Positions 50,034 through 63,134 of a stretch of 64,000 nucleotides of DNA are shown here, piece by piece. Within the stretch, counting starts at the first letter, position 1; the number at the start of each line of letters is the position of its first letter. Source of the DNA: an uncultured beta proteobacterium. Lineage in GTDB: Bacteria; Pseudomonadota; Gammaproteobacteria; Burkholderiales; Burkholderiaceae_C. The translations under genes were made by a program, and so were the position numbers. The notes under the pieces were generated by a model. That model saw nothing but the letters and a program-made list of their open reading frames with translations, searched no databases and was not told the DNA's origin. The stretch spans positions 1-64,000 of the forward strand of contig CAJBBZ010000120.1 in the NCBI GenBank assembly GCA_903951445.1, in the 5' to 3' direction.

Positions 50034-51083
50034 GTGGCCACCGACAGCGAACTGGTCGAGCGCTACCTGGAATACGTGCGCACCGAAAAGCGGCTTGCGC
50101 AGCGCACCGTCGAGTTGTACGCCTTGGATCTGGGCAAGTTACAAGACTTTGCAGCCGGTGCGACGCCGGCTAGCGCCAGCCCCGCCTCGGCGGGCGGGCG
50201 AGGCAAAAGCGGCAATGAAGCGAAAGGCTCAGGCGCACCGGCACTGGCGCTGTGCGAAGTCAGCCACCACCACATCCGCCGCTGGATCGCCATGATGCAC
50301 AGCGGCGGGCGCAGCGGGCGCGGCATTGCCTTAATTTTGAGCGGCTGGCGCGGCTTTTATGTGTGGCTGGGCCGCCAGGGCCTGGTCGCCAGCAACCCGG
50401 TGCAAGACGTGCGCGCCCCCAAAGCGCCCAAGCCCCTGCCCAAAGCCATGGGCGTCGATGACGCGGTGCAGTTTGCAGACTTTCAGAGCGAAGACGGCGC
50501 CTGGTTTGAAGCGCGCGACGCGGCCATAGTGGAGCTGCTCTACGGCAGCGGCCTGCGCGTGGGCGAGTTGGTGGGGCTGGATGTGCAGCCCGGCCCGCAG
50601 GCCAAAGGCTGGATAGACCTGCAAGAGGCGCAAGCCCATGTGCTGGGCAAAGGCGCCAAGCGGCGCGCTGTGCCGGTGGGCAGCGCGGCCTTGCGCGCGC
50701 TAGAGCGCTGGCTGGCACTGCGCGCCGCGCCGCCCGGCTTGGCCTCAGGCAGTGGCGCGCCAGTCCAGGCGCAGGCCGCTTTGGCCACCGCGCCGCAAGC
50801 AGCACTATTTACTGGGCGCAATGGCACGCGCCTGAGCGCGGCCTCGGTATGGCAACGCCTGCAACGACGCAGCCAGTTGGCGCACACCAGCGCCCCGGTG
50901 CATCCGCATATGCTGCGCCATTCCTTTGCAAGCCATGTGCTGCAATCGAGCAGCGACCTGCGCGGCGTGCAGGAATTGCTCGGCCACGCCAATATCAGCA
51001 CGACCCAGGTCTATACGCGGCTGGATTTCCAGCATTTGGCCAAGGCCTACGACGCGGCCCATCCGCGCGCCAAGTCCAAGTAA
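50034..51083 (+). CDS. xerC: Tyrosine recombinase XerC
   Basis: VERYLEYVRTEKRLAQRTVELYALDLGKLQDF...VELLYGSGLRVGELVGLDV...VHPHMLRHSFASHVLQSSSDLRGVQELLGHANISTTQVYTRLDFQHLAKAYDAAHPRA; start uncertain. Confidence 0.95.
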   Translation: MATDSELVERYLEYVRTEKRLAQRTVELYALDLGKLQDFAAGATPASASPASAGGRGKSGNEAKGSGAPALALCEVSHHHIRRWIAMMHSGGRSGRGIALILSGWRGFYVWLGRQGLVASNPVQDVRAPKAPKPLPKAMGVDDAVQFADFQSEDGAWFEARDAAIVELLYGSGLRVGELVGLDVQPGPQAKGWIDLQEAQAHVLGKGAKRRAVPVGSAALRALERWLALRAAPPGLASGSGAPVQAQAALATAPQAALFTGRNGTRLSAASVWQRLQRRSQLAHTSAPVHPHMLRHSFASHVLQSSSDLRGVQELLGHANISTTQVYTRLDFQHLAKAYDAAHPRAKSK

Positions 51084-51227
51084 ACCGCAAGCCGATTACC
51101 CGCAAAAATTGCATAGCACGATTTGCCGCGTTTTTGTCTATTTTTTTAGACTTGTTCACAAAAATTATTGGCTTGCATGATTGCAGGCCTGAAGCCGTCG
51201 AAAACCGTGCCAGGCTGCGCGATGTAT

Positions 51228-51394
51228 GCTAAGTCATTGATTTTTATAGCTAAGCGAATTTGCTTTTTTTCAAGGCATCGCGTCGAAAGCCTTGATTTTC
51301 CGAGGATTTTTGCCCGCGACGGACAGATATCAACAAAGTTATCCACAGATTGCGCGAATAGTGGGCCAAGTTGTTTCAAATCAATGACTTAAGC
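51228..51394. repeat. Inverted-repeat-bounded ~167-bp module, copy 1, with an internal DnaA-box-like TTATCCACA
   Basis: gctAAGTCATTGATTT...AAATCAATGACTTaagc (perfect 13-bp arms 51231-51243/51378-51390); CAAAGTTATCCACA at offset 106. Confidence 0.75.
51339..51347 (+). promoter_or_regulatory. DnaA-box-like TTATCCACA (module 1)
   Basis: Exact match to the TTATCCACA consensus. Confidence 0.55.
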
Positions 51395-51658
51395 GCATTT
51401 TCGACAGTCTGCTTCAGATGCGAGGGCTAAGCGGGATTTTCACTTCACAGCGTGAAAAATGCTGCTTTTTTGCGCCAAATCGGCAGGCACAATGCATGGG
51501 CGGTGCAAAAGTGCGCCAAAGCGCCCAAGGGGAAACCTAGGGCCCGACACAGTGGGCTTGCTAGAGGGCAAAGCCGCTAGAGTTATGCACATCAGCGGGC
51601 GCGCTCTGGGCTGGCCAAGCAAGCGCTGCAGCCAAGCCGCCTCGCAGGGGAGAAGTAC

Positions 51659-51824
51659 GCTAAGTGCTTGATTTGTAATAAATAAAATTTATGCTCAATT
51701 TTTAAGCAGGGTAAAGATATGCTGATTTTTCGAGGGCGGAAGGGGTTTAAATGGGGCATATCCCCAAAGTTATCCACAAAATCTGGGCATAAGGCAGCGG
51801 TGCTAATCAGATCAAGGGCTTAGC
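51659..51824. repeat. Inverted-repeat-bounded ~166-bp module, copy 2, with an internal DnaA-box-like TTATCCACA
   Basis: GCTAAGTGCTTGATTT...GATCAAGGGCTTAGC; CAAAGTTATCCACA at offset 106, the same as in copy 1. Confidence 0.75.
51770..51778 (+). promoter_or_regulatory. DnaA-box-like TTATCCACA (module 2)
   Basis: Exact match to the TTATCCACA consensus. Confidence 0.55.
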
Positions 51825-51904
51825 CCGTTTTCCTTCTGCTTTTTATGTACAAGACGTCCTATGTGTGATTTTCCTGTTGTGGTGCGCGCCGCGCCGCTTT
51901 GCCC

Positions 51905-54184
51905 ATGAGTGCCTGGCTGCCCGTACTGGTCCACACCCCGGCCCATGCGTCCATGGGCCCGGTGCTGACTTACCGGCACCGGGAGTTGCTGCCCGCCGGT
52001 ACGCTGGTGCGGGTGCCGCTGGGCGCGCGCGAAACACTGGGCGTGGTGTGGGACGCTAGTGACGAGGATGCCAGCGGCGAAATTGACCCCGGCAAGGTGC
52101 GCGACATCAGCGAAGTGCTTGACACGGTCTTGCCCCTGGCTGGCGCCTGGCAGCAATTGGTGCGCTTTGCGGCGCGCTACTACCAGCGTTCAGCGGGGGA
52201 AGTGGCGCTGGCCGCGCTGCCGCCGCAATTGCGCGAGCTATCTAGCTTGCAACTACAGCGCAAAGCCGCCCGGCTGCAAAAAGCGCTGGACAAGCCCGCA
52301 CCTGAGGCGAAGCAATTCAGTGCAGCGTGCGAATCAAGCGCCGATGGATCGCCACGTCGCTTCGCTCCTCGTGATGACGGCGCTACGCTAACTTCCTCCG
52401 ACGCAACTGGCGAAGTTTTAAGCCCTGCTCAGTCTCAGGCGCAAGCCTCAAGCAAAGCCCTTAGCGCCGAGCAAACCGAAGTCCTGGCACAAATAGAAGC
52501 GCAGAGCGGGCCGTTTTTGCTTTTTGGCGCCACCGGCAGCGGCAAGACTGAGGTGTATTTGCAAGCGGTGGAACAGCTGCTGGCACGCGAGCCACAGGCG
52601 CAAGCGCTGGTCATGGTGCCCGAGATCAATCTGACGCCACAACTGGAGGCCCGTTTTGTGGAGCGCTTTGCGCCGCAATGGGGGCCGCAGTCGGTGGTCA
52701 GCCTGCACAGCGGTATGACACCGGCGCAGCGCCTATCGGCCTGGCTGGCGGCGCACCAGGGCGGCGCGCGCATTGTGCTGGGCACGCGCATGGCGGTGTT
52801 TGCCTCTATGCCGGGTTTGCGCCTGATTGTGGTGGACGAAGAACATGACCCAAGCTACAAAAGCGGCGAAGGCGCGCGCTATTCGGCGCGCGATTTGGCG
52901 GTGTACCGGGGTCGGCTAGAGGGCGCCAAAGTGGTTTTAGGCTCGGCCACGCCCTCGCTGGAATCGTGGTTTCACAGCCGCCCGGCCAGCGAAGGCGGGC
53001 GCTACCTGCGCCTGCACATGCCCAGCCGCATAGGCGCCGCCGGACGCAGTCTGCCGCTGGTGCGCCGGGTGGACATGACGCACCAGCCGCGCAACGCGGT
53101 CGTGTCGCCACCCTTGCTGGAGGCGATTAAAGAACGCATCGCACGCGGCGAGCAGTGCCTGGTGTTCCTGAACCGGCGCGGCTATGCGCCGGTGCTCCAT
53201 TGCAGCGACTGCGGCTGGAAAAGCGCCTGCGGGCATTGCAGCGCGTTTAGGGTGTTTCACAAAAGCGACCGCACGCTGCGCTGCCACCACTGCGGCCACA
53301 GCGAGCGCGTGCCGCGCACCTGCCCCGGTTGCGGCAACCCGGATATCCTGACACTGGGGCGCGGCACCGAGCAAATTGAAGAACTGCTCGCCACGCTCTT
53401 AGCCGATGTGCGCCGCCCCGGCACGCCAACTGCGGATCAACCCGATGGCGAGCCGGTGCGCATTGGCCGCATTGATGCCGACACTACGCGGCTCAAGGGC
53501 GCGCTGCAAAGCCAGTTGGCGGCGGTGCATGCGGGAGAAGTGGATGTGCTGGTAGGCACGCAAATGATTGCCAAAGGCCATGATTTCCGGCGTATCACGC
53601 TGGTGGCGGCCGTCAACCCGGACAGTGCTTTGTTTTCCAGCGACTTTAGGGCGCCCGAGCGCCTGTTTTCGCTGTTGCTGCAAGCAGCAGGGCGGGCCGG
53701 GCGCGATGCCGAGCTCGGCGCGCACAGCGAGGTGTGGGTGCAAACTTTTCAACCCGCGCACCCGGTGTATGCGGCGCTGAAAAATTACGACTATTCCAGC
53801 TTTGCACACAGCCAACTGCAAGAGCGCGAACAAGCAGGCATGCCGCCCTTTAGCTACCAAGCCCTGGTGCGCGCCGACGCCCGCAGCCAAGAGGCGGCCC
53901 AGGCTTTTTTGAACACGGCGCGTAAGCGCGCCAGCTCCGATATGGGCGAATGGTCCGGCTGGGCACGGGTGCTGGAGCAAGTGATGCTCTACCCCGCCGT
54001 GCCCATGGCCATGCAGCGCGTGGCCAATGTGGAGCGTGCGCAAATGCTGGTGGAAAGCCCTTCGCGCAATGCCTTGCAAAGTTTTTTGGCGGCGTGGCAA
54101 GAGGTGCTGCACGCCAGTCGTAGCGACCCGGCTTGCAAAGGCCTTATTCGCTGGGCTATTGATGTGGATCCTCTGGCGATCTGA
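51905..54184 (+). CDS. priA: Primosomal protein N' (PriA helicase)
   Basis: FLLFGATGSGKTEVYLQAVEQLL...VVDEEHDPSYK...CSDCGWKSACGHCSAFRVFHKSDRTLRCHHCGHSERVPRTCPGCG...GTQMIAKGHDF. Confidence 0.97.
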   Translation: MSAWLPVLVHTPAHASMGPVLTYRHRELLPAGTLVRVPLGARETLGVVWDASDEDASGEIDPGKVRDISEVLDTVLPLAGAWQQLVRFAARYYQRSAGEVALAALPPQLRELSSLQLQRKAARLQKALDKPAPEAKQFSAACESSADGSPRRFAPRDDGATLTSSDATGEVLSPAQSQAQASSKALSAEQTEVLAQIEAQSGPFLLFGATGSGKTEVYLQAVEQLLAREPQAQALVMVPEINLTPQLEARFVERFAPQWGPQSVVSLHSGMTPAQRLSAWLAAHQGGARIVLGTRMAVFASMPGLRLIVVDEEHDPSYKSGEGARYSARDLAVYRGRLEGAKVVLGSATPSLESWFHSRPASEGGRYLRLHMPSRIGAAGRSLPLVRRVDMTHQPRNAVVSPPLLEAIKERIARGEQCLVFLNRRGYAPVLHCSDCGWKSACGHCSAFRVFHKSDRTLRCHHCGHSERVPRTCPGCGNPDILTLGRGTEQIEELLATLLADVRRPGTPTADQPDGEPVRIGRIDADTTRLKGALQSQLAAVHAGEVDVLVGTQMIAKGHDFRRITLVAAVNPDSALFSSDFRAPERLFSLLLQAAGRAGRDAELGAHSEVWVQTFQPAHPVYAALKNYDYSSFAHSQLQEREQAGMPPFSYQALVRADARSQEAAQAFLNTARKRASSDMGEWSGWARVLEQVMLYPAVPMAMQRVANVERAQMLVESPSRNALQSFLAAWQEVLHASRSDPACKGLIRWAIDVDPLAI
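52311..52397. repeat. Dispersed palindromic repeat copy C, in frame inside priA
   Basis: gcgaagcaattcag...gaatcaagcgccgatggatcgccacgtcgcttcgctcctcgtgatgacgg...aacttcc aligns to copies A and B. Confidence 0.8.
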
Positions 54185-61253: not shown

Positions 61254-63134
61254 ATGAATGCAATCTCCACGCCAGGACTGGACCTCAAAGTCCCTGCCTA
61301 TGTGAAAAACCCACGCCTGATCGCCTGGGTAAGCGATATGGCGACTTTATGCAAACCCGCCGCCATCCACTGGTGCGATGGCTCGCAAGAGGAATACCAA
61401 ATGCTGTGCCAACGTCTGGTCGATGCCGGCACTTTTACGAAGCTCAATGCAGCTAAACGCCCGAACAGTTTTTTAGCTTTGTCCGACCCCAGCGACGTGG
61501 CGCGCGTGGAAGACCGCACCTATATCTGCAGCGAGAAAAAAGAAGACGCCGGCCCCACCAATAACTGGATGGCACCCGCCGAGATGCGCGCCACTTTGCA
61601 GCCATTGTTCGATGGTTGCATGCGCGGACGCACCATGTATGTGGTGCCTTTTTCTATGGGCCCGCTGGGTTCCCACATCGCGCATATCGGTATTGAATTG
61701 AGCGACAGCGCCTATGTCGCAGTCAACCAGCGCATCATGACGCGCATGGGTCGCGCGGTCTACGAGGTGCTGGGCACGGACGGCGACTTCGTGCCTTGCA
61801 TGCACACCGTGGCCGCACCCTTGGCCGAGGGCCAAGCTGATGTGAAATGGCCGTGCAACACAAGCAAGTACATCGTGCACTATCCGCAAACACGCGAGGT
61901 CTGGTCTTACGGTTCGGGCTACGGCGGCAATGCTTTGCTGGGCAAAAAATGTTTTGCACTGCGCATCGCTTCCACCATGGGCCGTGCCGATGCCAGCGCC
62001 AACAGCACCGGCTGGCTGGCCGAGCACATGCTGATTTTGGGCGTGACCAATCCGCAAGGAAAAAAATACCATGTAGCGGCGGCCTTTCCCAGCGCCTGCG
62101 GCAAAACCAATTTCTCCATGCTGGTACCGCCTGCCGGTTTCGAAGGCTGGAAGGTCAGCACCATTGGTGATGACATCGCCTGGATCAAGCCGCACAGCGA
62201 TGGCCGCATGTACGCCATCAACCCCGAGGCGGGTTATTTCGGCGTCGCGCCCGGCACCAATTACCACACCAACCCCAACTGCATGGCTTGCCTGAATCAC
62301 GACGTCATCTTCACCAATGTCGCACTGACCGACGACGGCGATGTGTGGTGGGAAGGCATGGAAAAAGACGACGGCAAATTGCCCGCGCATTTGATCGATT
62401 GGCAGGGCAAAGACTGGACACCGGCCATCGCCAAAGAAACCGGCGCCAAAGCCGCGCACCCGAACTCGCGCTTTACCGTGGCCGCCACCAACAACCCGGC
62501 GCTAGACAGCGCATGGGACGATGCCAACGGCGTGCCCATTGACGCCTTTATCTTTGGCGGTCGCCGTTCCACCACCGTGCCGCTGGTCACCGAGGCGCGC
62601 AACTGGGTAGAGGGCGTGTACATGGCGGCCACCATGGGCTCAGAAACCACGGCAGCCGCTGCGGGCAAGCAAGGCGTAGTGCGGCGCGATCCCTTTGCCA
62701 TGCTGCCGTTTACCGGCTACAACGTGAGCGACTATTTTCAGCACTGGCTCAACATCGGCCAAAAAATGGGCCAGGCCGGCGCCAAGCTACCGGCGATTTA
62801 CTGCGTCAACTGGTTTCGCAAAGATGCTGAGGGCAAGTTTGTGTGGCCCGGCTATGGTGAAAACATGCGCGTGCTCAAGTGGATGATTGAGCGCATTGAA
62901 GGCAAAACCATGGGTGTGGATAACGGCTTTGGTATCAGCCCGGCTTTTGACGAAATCACCTGGACGGGACTGGAGTTCACCAAGGCGCAGTTCGCGACGG
63001 TGACGAGTCTGGACAAGGCCGATTGGAAAACCGAAATCGCTTTGCATACCGAGTTGTTCAAGCAGTTGGCCTACCACCTGCCGGCGCAACTTGAAAGTAC
63101 TAAAGCGCAATTGGAGCAGCGCCTGGCGGCTTAA
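61254..63134 (+). CDS. pckG: Phosphoenolpyruvate carboxykinase (GTP)
   Basis: [30 protein letters not shown]...[61 protein letters not shown]. Confidence 0.98.

Follow-up and report, generated by a model that had tools for sequence, protein, structure and literature searches.

DnaA-reactivating sequences (DARS) and the datA locus are the described systems closest to the locus presented here. DARS function was worked out in E. coli. These sites are defined by a core in which DnaA box I opposes boxes II and III with a shared spacing, and DARS1 has this same three-box core spacing (PMC5742627). In E. coli DARS2, located near 2.97 Mb of NC_000913.3 between rppH and mutH, boxes III, II and inverted I are found at -12, 0 and +14 relative to box II. 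Both of its IHF sites are on one side of the core, at -99 (IBS1) and -83; they are 3 bp apart, which matches the published IBS1-IBS2 gap (PMC4245941). The datA locus appears in the literature as same-facing DnaA boxes with IHF between them.

Many proteobacteria contain conserved DARS-like sequences (PMC10380432), and their presence in the E. coli-proximal beta- and gamma-proteobacteria has been mentioned in passing (PMC5742627). Thus, the kind of element is already known from these two papers. A literature search for beta-proteobacterial or Burkholderia DARS yielded no description, and none of the papers retrieved contained a distal DnaA box, an inverted IHF site at +40, linkage to priA, or a spread over some 160 family-level groups.

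Two modules upstream of priA

The window, i.e., the whole stretch of 64,000 nucleotides analysed, contains two modules upstream of priA. Two sequence-only models of the element were used: R1, built from 35 copies, and R2, built from order-wide copies. The modules and the genes next to them are as follows.

50034-51083, + strand: xerC, the upstream neighbour only in the host species and its closest relatives
51148-51400, + strand: module 1, whole element from distal DnaA box to right IHF site (R1 144 bits, R2 119 bits)
51579-51831, + strand: module 2, whole element (R1 128.8 bits, R2 103 bits)
51905-54184, + strand: priA, the immediate and conserved downstream neighbour (ATG taken at 51905)

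An earlier note on this DNA had described two modules with inverted ends. Both are present where it had placed them, with their ends and with GATTTTYCGAGG and CAAAGTTATCCACA, but the length it gave was too short. Each module measures ~253 bp, since comparative data add ~80 bp upstream, up to a DnaA box that precedes TTATCCACA by exactly 187 bp. The same note had taken GATTTTYCGAGG for a conserved motif; it is not widely kept as such, and the stretch retained throughout the family is CTTGATTTtCAAGG.

The two modules share 124 of 253 positions in an ungapped comparison, as compared to 66 +/- 7 (maximum 90) in 2000 shuffles. A profile built from related elements, with the two modules among the contributors, scored them at 144 and 123 bits, whereas 2000 shuffles of the host intergenic region, and shuffles of the window as well, stayed at or below 11.3 bits. 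The modules are therefore far more similar than shuffled intergenic sequence, and core and arms are conserved in relatives; the earlier note had named the opposite of either result as evidence against its proposal. In the host genome, R2 finds the two modules only (119 and 103 bits), the next-best match having 17 bits. Likewise, CAAAGTTATCCACA occurs twice in the whole 3.6-Mb genome, once per module and nowhere else. The window contains three exact matches to TTATCCACA, where 0.16 would be expected. The third one (62915-62923, minus strand) lies in another sequence context with no element around it and is unrelated.

Site arrangement and comparison with E. coli loci

The putative sites in both modules are listed below, with offsets from core box II. 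They are predictions, from which we infer binding by DnaA, IHF and Fis.

51152-51160, + strand: module 1 distal DnaA box TTGTTCACA, -187
51230-51242, + strand: module 1 left IHF site TAAGTCATTGATT, perfect consensus, -109
51262-51276, + strand: module 1 Fis-like site GCTTTTTTTCAAGGC, 2 mismatches, -77
51285-51297, + strand: module 1 additional IHF-like site GAAAGCCTTGATT, 1 mismatch, -54; includes the start of the earlier note's motif, GATTTTCCGAGG
51327-51335, + strand: module 1 core DnaA box III ATATCAACA, degenerate, 2 mismatches, -12
51339-51347, + strand: module 1 core DnaA box II TTATCCACA, offset 0
51353-51361, - strand: module 1 core DnaA box I, inverted, degenerate, 4 mismatches (CGCGAATAG on the + strand), +14
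51379-51391, - strand: module 1 right IHF site AATCAATGACTTA, perfect consensus, inverted, +40
51583-51591, + strand: module 2 distal DnaA box TTATGCACA, -187
51661-51673, + strand: module 2 left IHF site TAAGTGCTTGATT, perfect consensus, -109
51693-51707, + strand: module 2 Fis-like site GCTCAATTTTTAAGC, perfect GNNYANNNNNTRNNC, -77
51758-51766, + strand: module 2 core DnaA box III ATATCCCCA, 2 mismatches, -12
51770-51778, + strand: module 2 core DnaA box II TTATCCACA, offset 0
51784-51792, - strand: module 2 core DnaA box I, inverted, 2 mismatches (TGGGCATAA on the + strand), +14
51810-51822, - strand: module 2 right IHF site GATCAAGGGCTTA, 1 mismatch, +40

When compared with the IHF consensus TAAnnnnTTGATW (PMC8682772), three of the four arms are perfect and one has a single mismatch. 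The inverted ends are real and consist of two facing IHF consensus sites; given the lack of covariation between their free positions, they are not the arms of an RNA stem. It is very improbable that the modules form a structured RNA or a priA leader with pairing ends, as the earlier note had considered for an RNA. The arms of module 1 are indeed complementary over 14 bp, but covariation between arm pairs amounts to 0.071 vs. 0.073 in shuffles, and the free positions inside the IHF arms vary independently. Furthermore, two central arm columns are unpaired in 18-20 of the 35 sequences, RNA-folding z-scores are near 0 and no better than those of shuffles, and an Rfam scan at a relaxed threshold gave no relevant match. 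A third IHF-like site, GAANNNNTTGATT, is located at -54, and 41 of 137 elements carry it with no more than one mismatch. It overlaps GATTTTYCGAGG and is part of a hairpin CAAAGCCTTGATTTTCAAGGCTTTG in many relatives.

Offsets from box II, measured over 135 distinct elements, revealed a near-fixed order: distal DnaA box, left IHF site, Fis-like site, the core of boxes III, II and inverted I, and the inverted right IHF site. The distal box lies at -187 in the host family, with a spacing of 186-189 in all 40 elements of the genus. It is 187-193 from box II across the class. In other families of the order, its distance is 176-179 or 184-188, two clusters about one helical turn (~10 bases) apart, and such ten-base steps imply that rotational phase matters. 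The left IHF site is at -109 or -110 in 113 elements, and the right, inverted one at +40 in 78 of 137 (at most two at any other offset). Perfect matches to the Fis consensus number 24 at -78 and 16 at -77; the mean for the remaining offsets is 0.03. Outside the host family, box I is located at +14 in 62 of 62 elements and box III at -12 in 60 of 62.

In these other families and in the class at large, the core reads (T)TCCACA-AAG-TTATCCACA-n5-TGTGGATAA, which is the layout of the E. coli DARS core. Thus, at the level of class and order, box I opposes boxes II and III at fixed spacing, as in DARS. In the host family, the outer core boxes are weaker than in this class-wide form, box III being ATATCAACA and box I being degenerate; in the window, the positions of the three boxes are kept, with two mismatches in box III and four and two in box I. 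Even so, host-family box I has on average 3.9 mismatches at +14, as compared to at least 5.5 at all other offsets between 9 and 35. Because +14 is the best-matching offset, the position of box I appears constrained even where the box itself is degenerate. The right IHF site is near-perfect in the host family, which has the further IHF-like site at -54.

When R2 was run on three loci of E. coli, so that any match is local, the DARS2 region scored 29.7 and 28.0 bits at two places, and datA 16.6 bits at one box only. DARS1, in the uvrB-moaA region, was not matched by the element models; it has the same class of function as that proposed for the host element, but it requires neither IHF nor Fis. 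Like the host element, DARS2 is intergenic, has its core boxes at the same offsets and is detected by the models; it involves Fis, as is predicted for the host element. In both, IHF sites are found at a fixed distance from the core, although the host site at -109 is about one helical turn farther away than IBS1. The Fis consensus, concentrated at -77/-78, lies between the IHF site and the core, whereas the functional Fis sites of DARS2 are located outside the IHF sites. DARS2 also differs in not being at priA and in having a stronger core box I than module 1, and neither a distal box at -187 nor an inverted IHF site at +40 was found in the E. coli copy.

With moderate confidence, we regard each module as a DARS-type site of the DARS2 sort. 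Arrangements of both DARS and datA are present, and the III-II-I core together with the Fis-like site favors DARS2. The earlier note's suggestion of a DnaA-titrating or -reactivating locus is, in this broader form, strongly supported: throughout the class, DnaA and IHF sites and a Fis-like site keep near-fixed spacing, and the element resembles E. coli DARS2. Several observations are at odds with a DARS. With boxes I and III degenerate in the host family, what is left is a datA-like arrangement of two strong, equally oriented DnaA boxes on either side of IHF, and the distance to dnaA is nearer to that of datA than to those of DARS1 and DARS2. In addition, the order of Fis and IHF sites deviates from DARS2, DARS1 was missed by the models, and the Fis-like site of module 1 has two mismatches.

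A datA-like function is possible but doubtful. IHF would then join the same-facing boxes at -187 and 0, and ATP-DnaA oligomers would hydrolyse their ATP, or DnaA would simply be titrated; either way, initiation would be lowered after passage of the fork. In datA, too, strong boxes of equal orientation enclose IHF (box 2 - IBS - box 3). The IHF site of datA has the same orientation as here, and its distances are 65 bp from box 2 and 97 bp to box 3, vs. 78 and 109 bp in the element. Also the distance of the element to dnaA and oriC resembles that of datA. In the window, distal box, left IHF site and box II face the same way, but the modules also contain additional IHF sites, and their box I is inverted. 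However, in the class-wide form, box I is canonical and inverted and a Fis-like site is present, both features being absent from the cited descriptions of datA. The datA locus has no III-II-I core at the model position and no Fis site, its R2 score of 16.6 bits covers the core only as against 29.7 for the DARS2 region, and the persisting constraint on the position of box I in the host family argues against the datA-like reading.

The element was also considered as a candidate oriC and rejected, as the GC skew flips near dnaA, 527 kb away, in the one complete relative sampled. The oriC of the host lineage, in the dnaA-rpmH intergenic region, resembles the element in its DnaA boxes and TATCAAnnnnTTATCCACA motifs, but the two loci are separate, ~0.5 Mb apart, and in a relative it is oriC that coincides with the GC-skew switch.

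Distribution, neighbourhood and duplication

The search of relatives proposed in the earlier note, covering copy number, synteny with priA and conserved positions, revealed a widespread, priA-linked element with conserved spacing. BLASTN detected the locus in 35 of 37 genomes of the same genus, the host included. R1 detected the element in 294 of 300 host-family genomes, which represent 138 of 141 genera, and in 138 of 150 genomes from the host order. Throughout the gammaproteobacterial class, R2 matched 168 of 185 genomes, often twice per genome and at full length, with best E-values outside the host order down to about 1e-23; E-values from sequence-only models are rough, and a separate nhmmer run was in agreement. 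In the sampled phylum, R2 matched 95 of 120 genomes, i.e., most but not all, and several families were blank. In a family-level group outside the class (f224, e.g., G697, G700 and G704), up to nine R2 matches per genome were found, many of them spanning most of R2; this number of DARS-like elements per chromosome is unusually high.

In every host-family locus tested and in many other families, priA directly follows the element. This position speaks for a regulatory region through which DnaA, IHF and Fis would control priA transcription, an explanation that we nevertheless consider improbable. Copies occur in tandem, two and three deep, one copy in G015 is downstream of priA, many second copies adjoin unrelated genes such as xseA, ksgA and uvrB, and no promoter-like site above chance was found. 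Elsewhere, second copies are located beside xseA, ksgA/aroE, hemE and rapA. In one genome (L168), a copy lies downstream, at the 3' end of uvrB, the gene beside E. coli DARS1. The G015 locus (L177) has one full-length copy directly upstream of priA and one directly downstream. In 23 of 24 genomes, element and dnaA are separated by about 7.5-18% of the genome, and in the remaining one by 1.3% (some genome sizes were rounded). The element is nearer to oriC than DARS1 and DARS2 are in E. coli.

Module-2 copies from eight species, including the host and distant members of the genus, form one clade, whereas those of module 1 cluster with elements from other species that have a single copy. Judged from this grouping, the two modules are paralogues from an older duplication, both products of which kept their layout. 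Other genera contain independent-looking tandem pairs or triplets. The second copies at two loci (L012 and L017) have kept the DnaA core and lost the right IHF arm, and are apparently decaying.

A non-autonomous mobile element, another role offered in the earlier note, would here be one with terminal inverted repeats; the two copies with inverted ends and the tandem copies in relatives speak for it. This reading is very improbable, given the two copies per genome, the fixed place upstream of priA, the conservation of the inner spacing over the class, the single clade of module-2 copies from distant species, and the lack of element matches in plasmid and phage records. A palindromic-repeat-like sequence, TGGATCGCCACGTCGCTTCGCTCCTCGTGATGACG, is present in frame inside priA (window 52345-52380), where it adds residues like DGSPRRFAPRDDG to PriA; it is found again at 2300-2334 with two mismatches.

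Possible role in the timing of initiation

The host genome encodes IHF-alpha, IHF-beta and a 77-residue Fis-family protein, whose Fis score is slightly under NCBI's cut-off. If the modules are indeed DARS-type sites, IHF and Fis would bend the DNA, and ADP-DnaA bound head-to-head on boxes I and II would be strained by this bending, resulting in the release of ADP. The freed DnaA would bind ATP and thereby raise the capacity for initiation at oriC, about 0.5 Mb away. Nucleotide exchange on DnaA and a role in the timing of initiation are predictions from the layout of the sites. The host variant is best read as a DARS-type site that was duplicated once and in which an inverted IHF site was added and the outer core boxes were weakened.

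Owing to the near-fixed geometry and the recovery of the element by one model, the recharging of DnaA becomes testable in non-model bacteria, and the twin modules offer a natural duplicate for dissecting it. As a speculation to which we attach a low probability, the class-wide element might be an ancestral DnaA-state switch from which both datA and DARS2 of E. coli were derived. The combined locus in Burkholderiales families could then discharge as well as recharge DnaA, depending on its occupancy by IHF and Fis, with the twins beginning to split these jobs. If so, a single locus with the arrangement of datA and the core of DARS would serve both directions of the DnaA state at one site.
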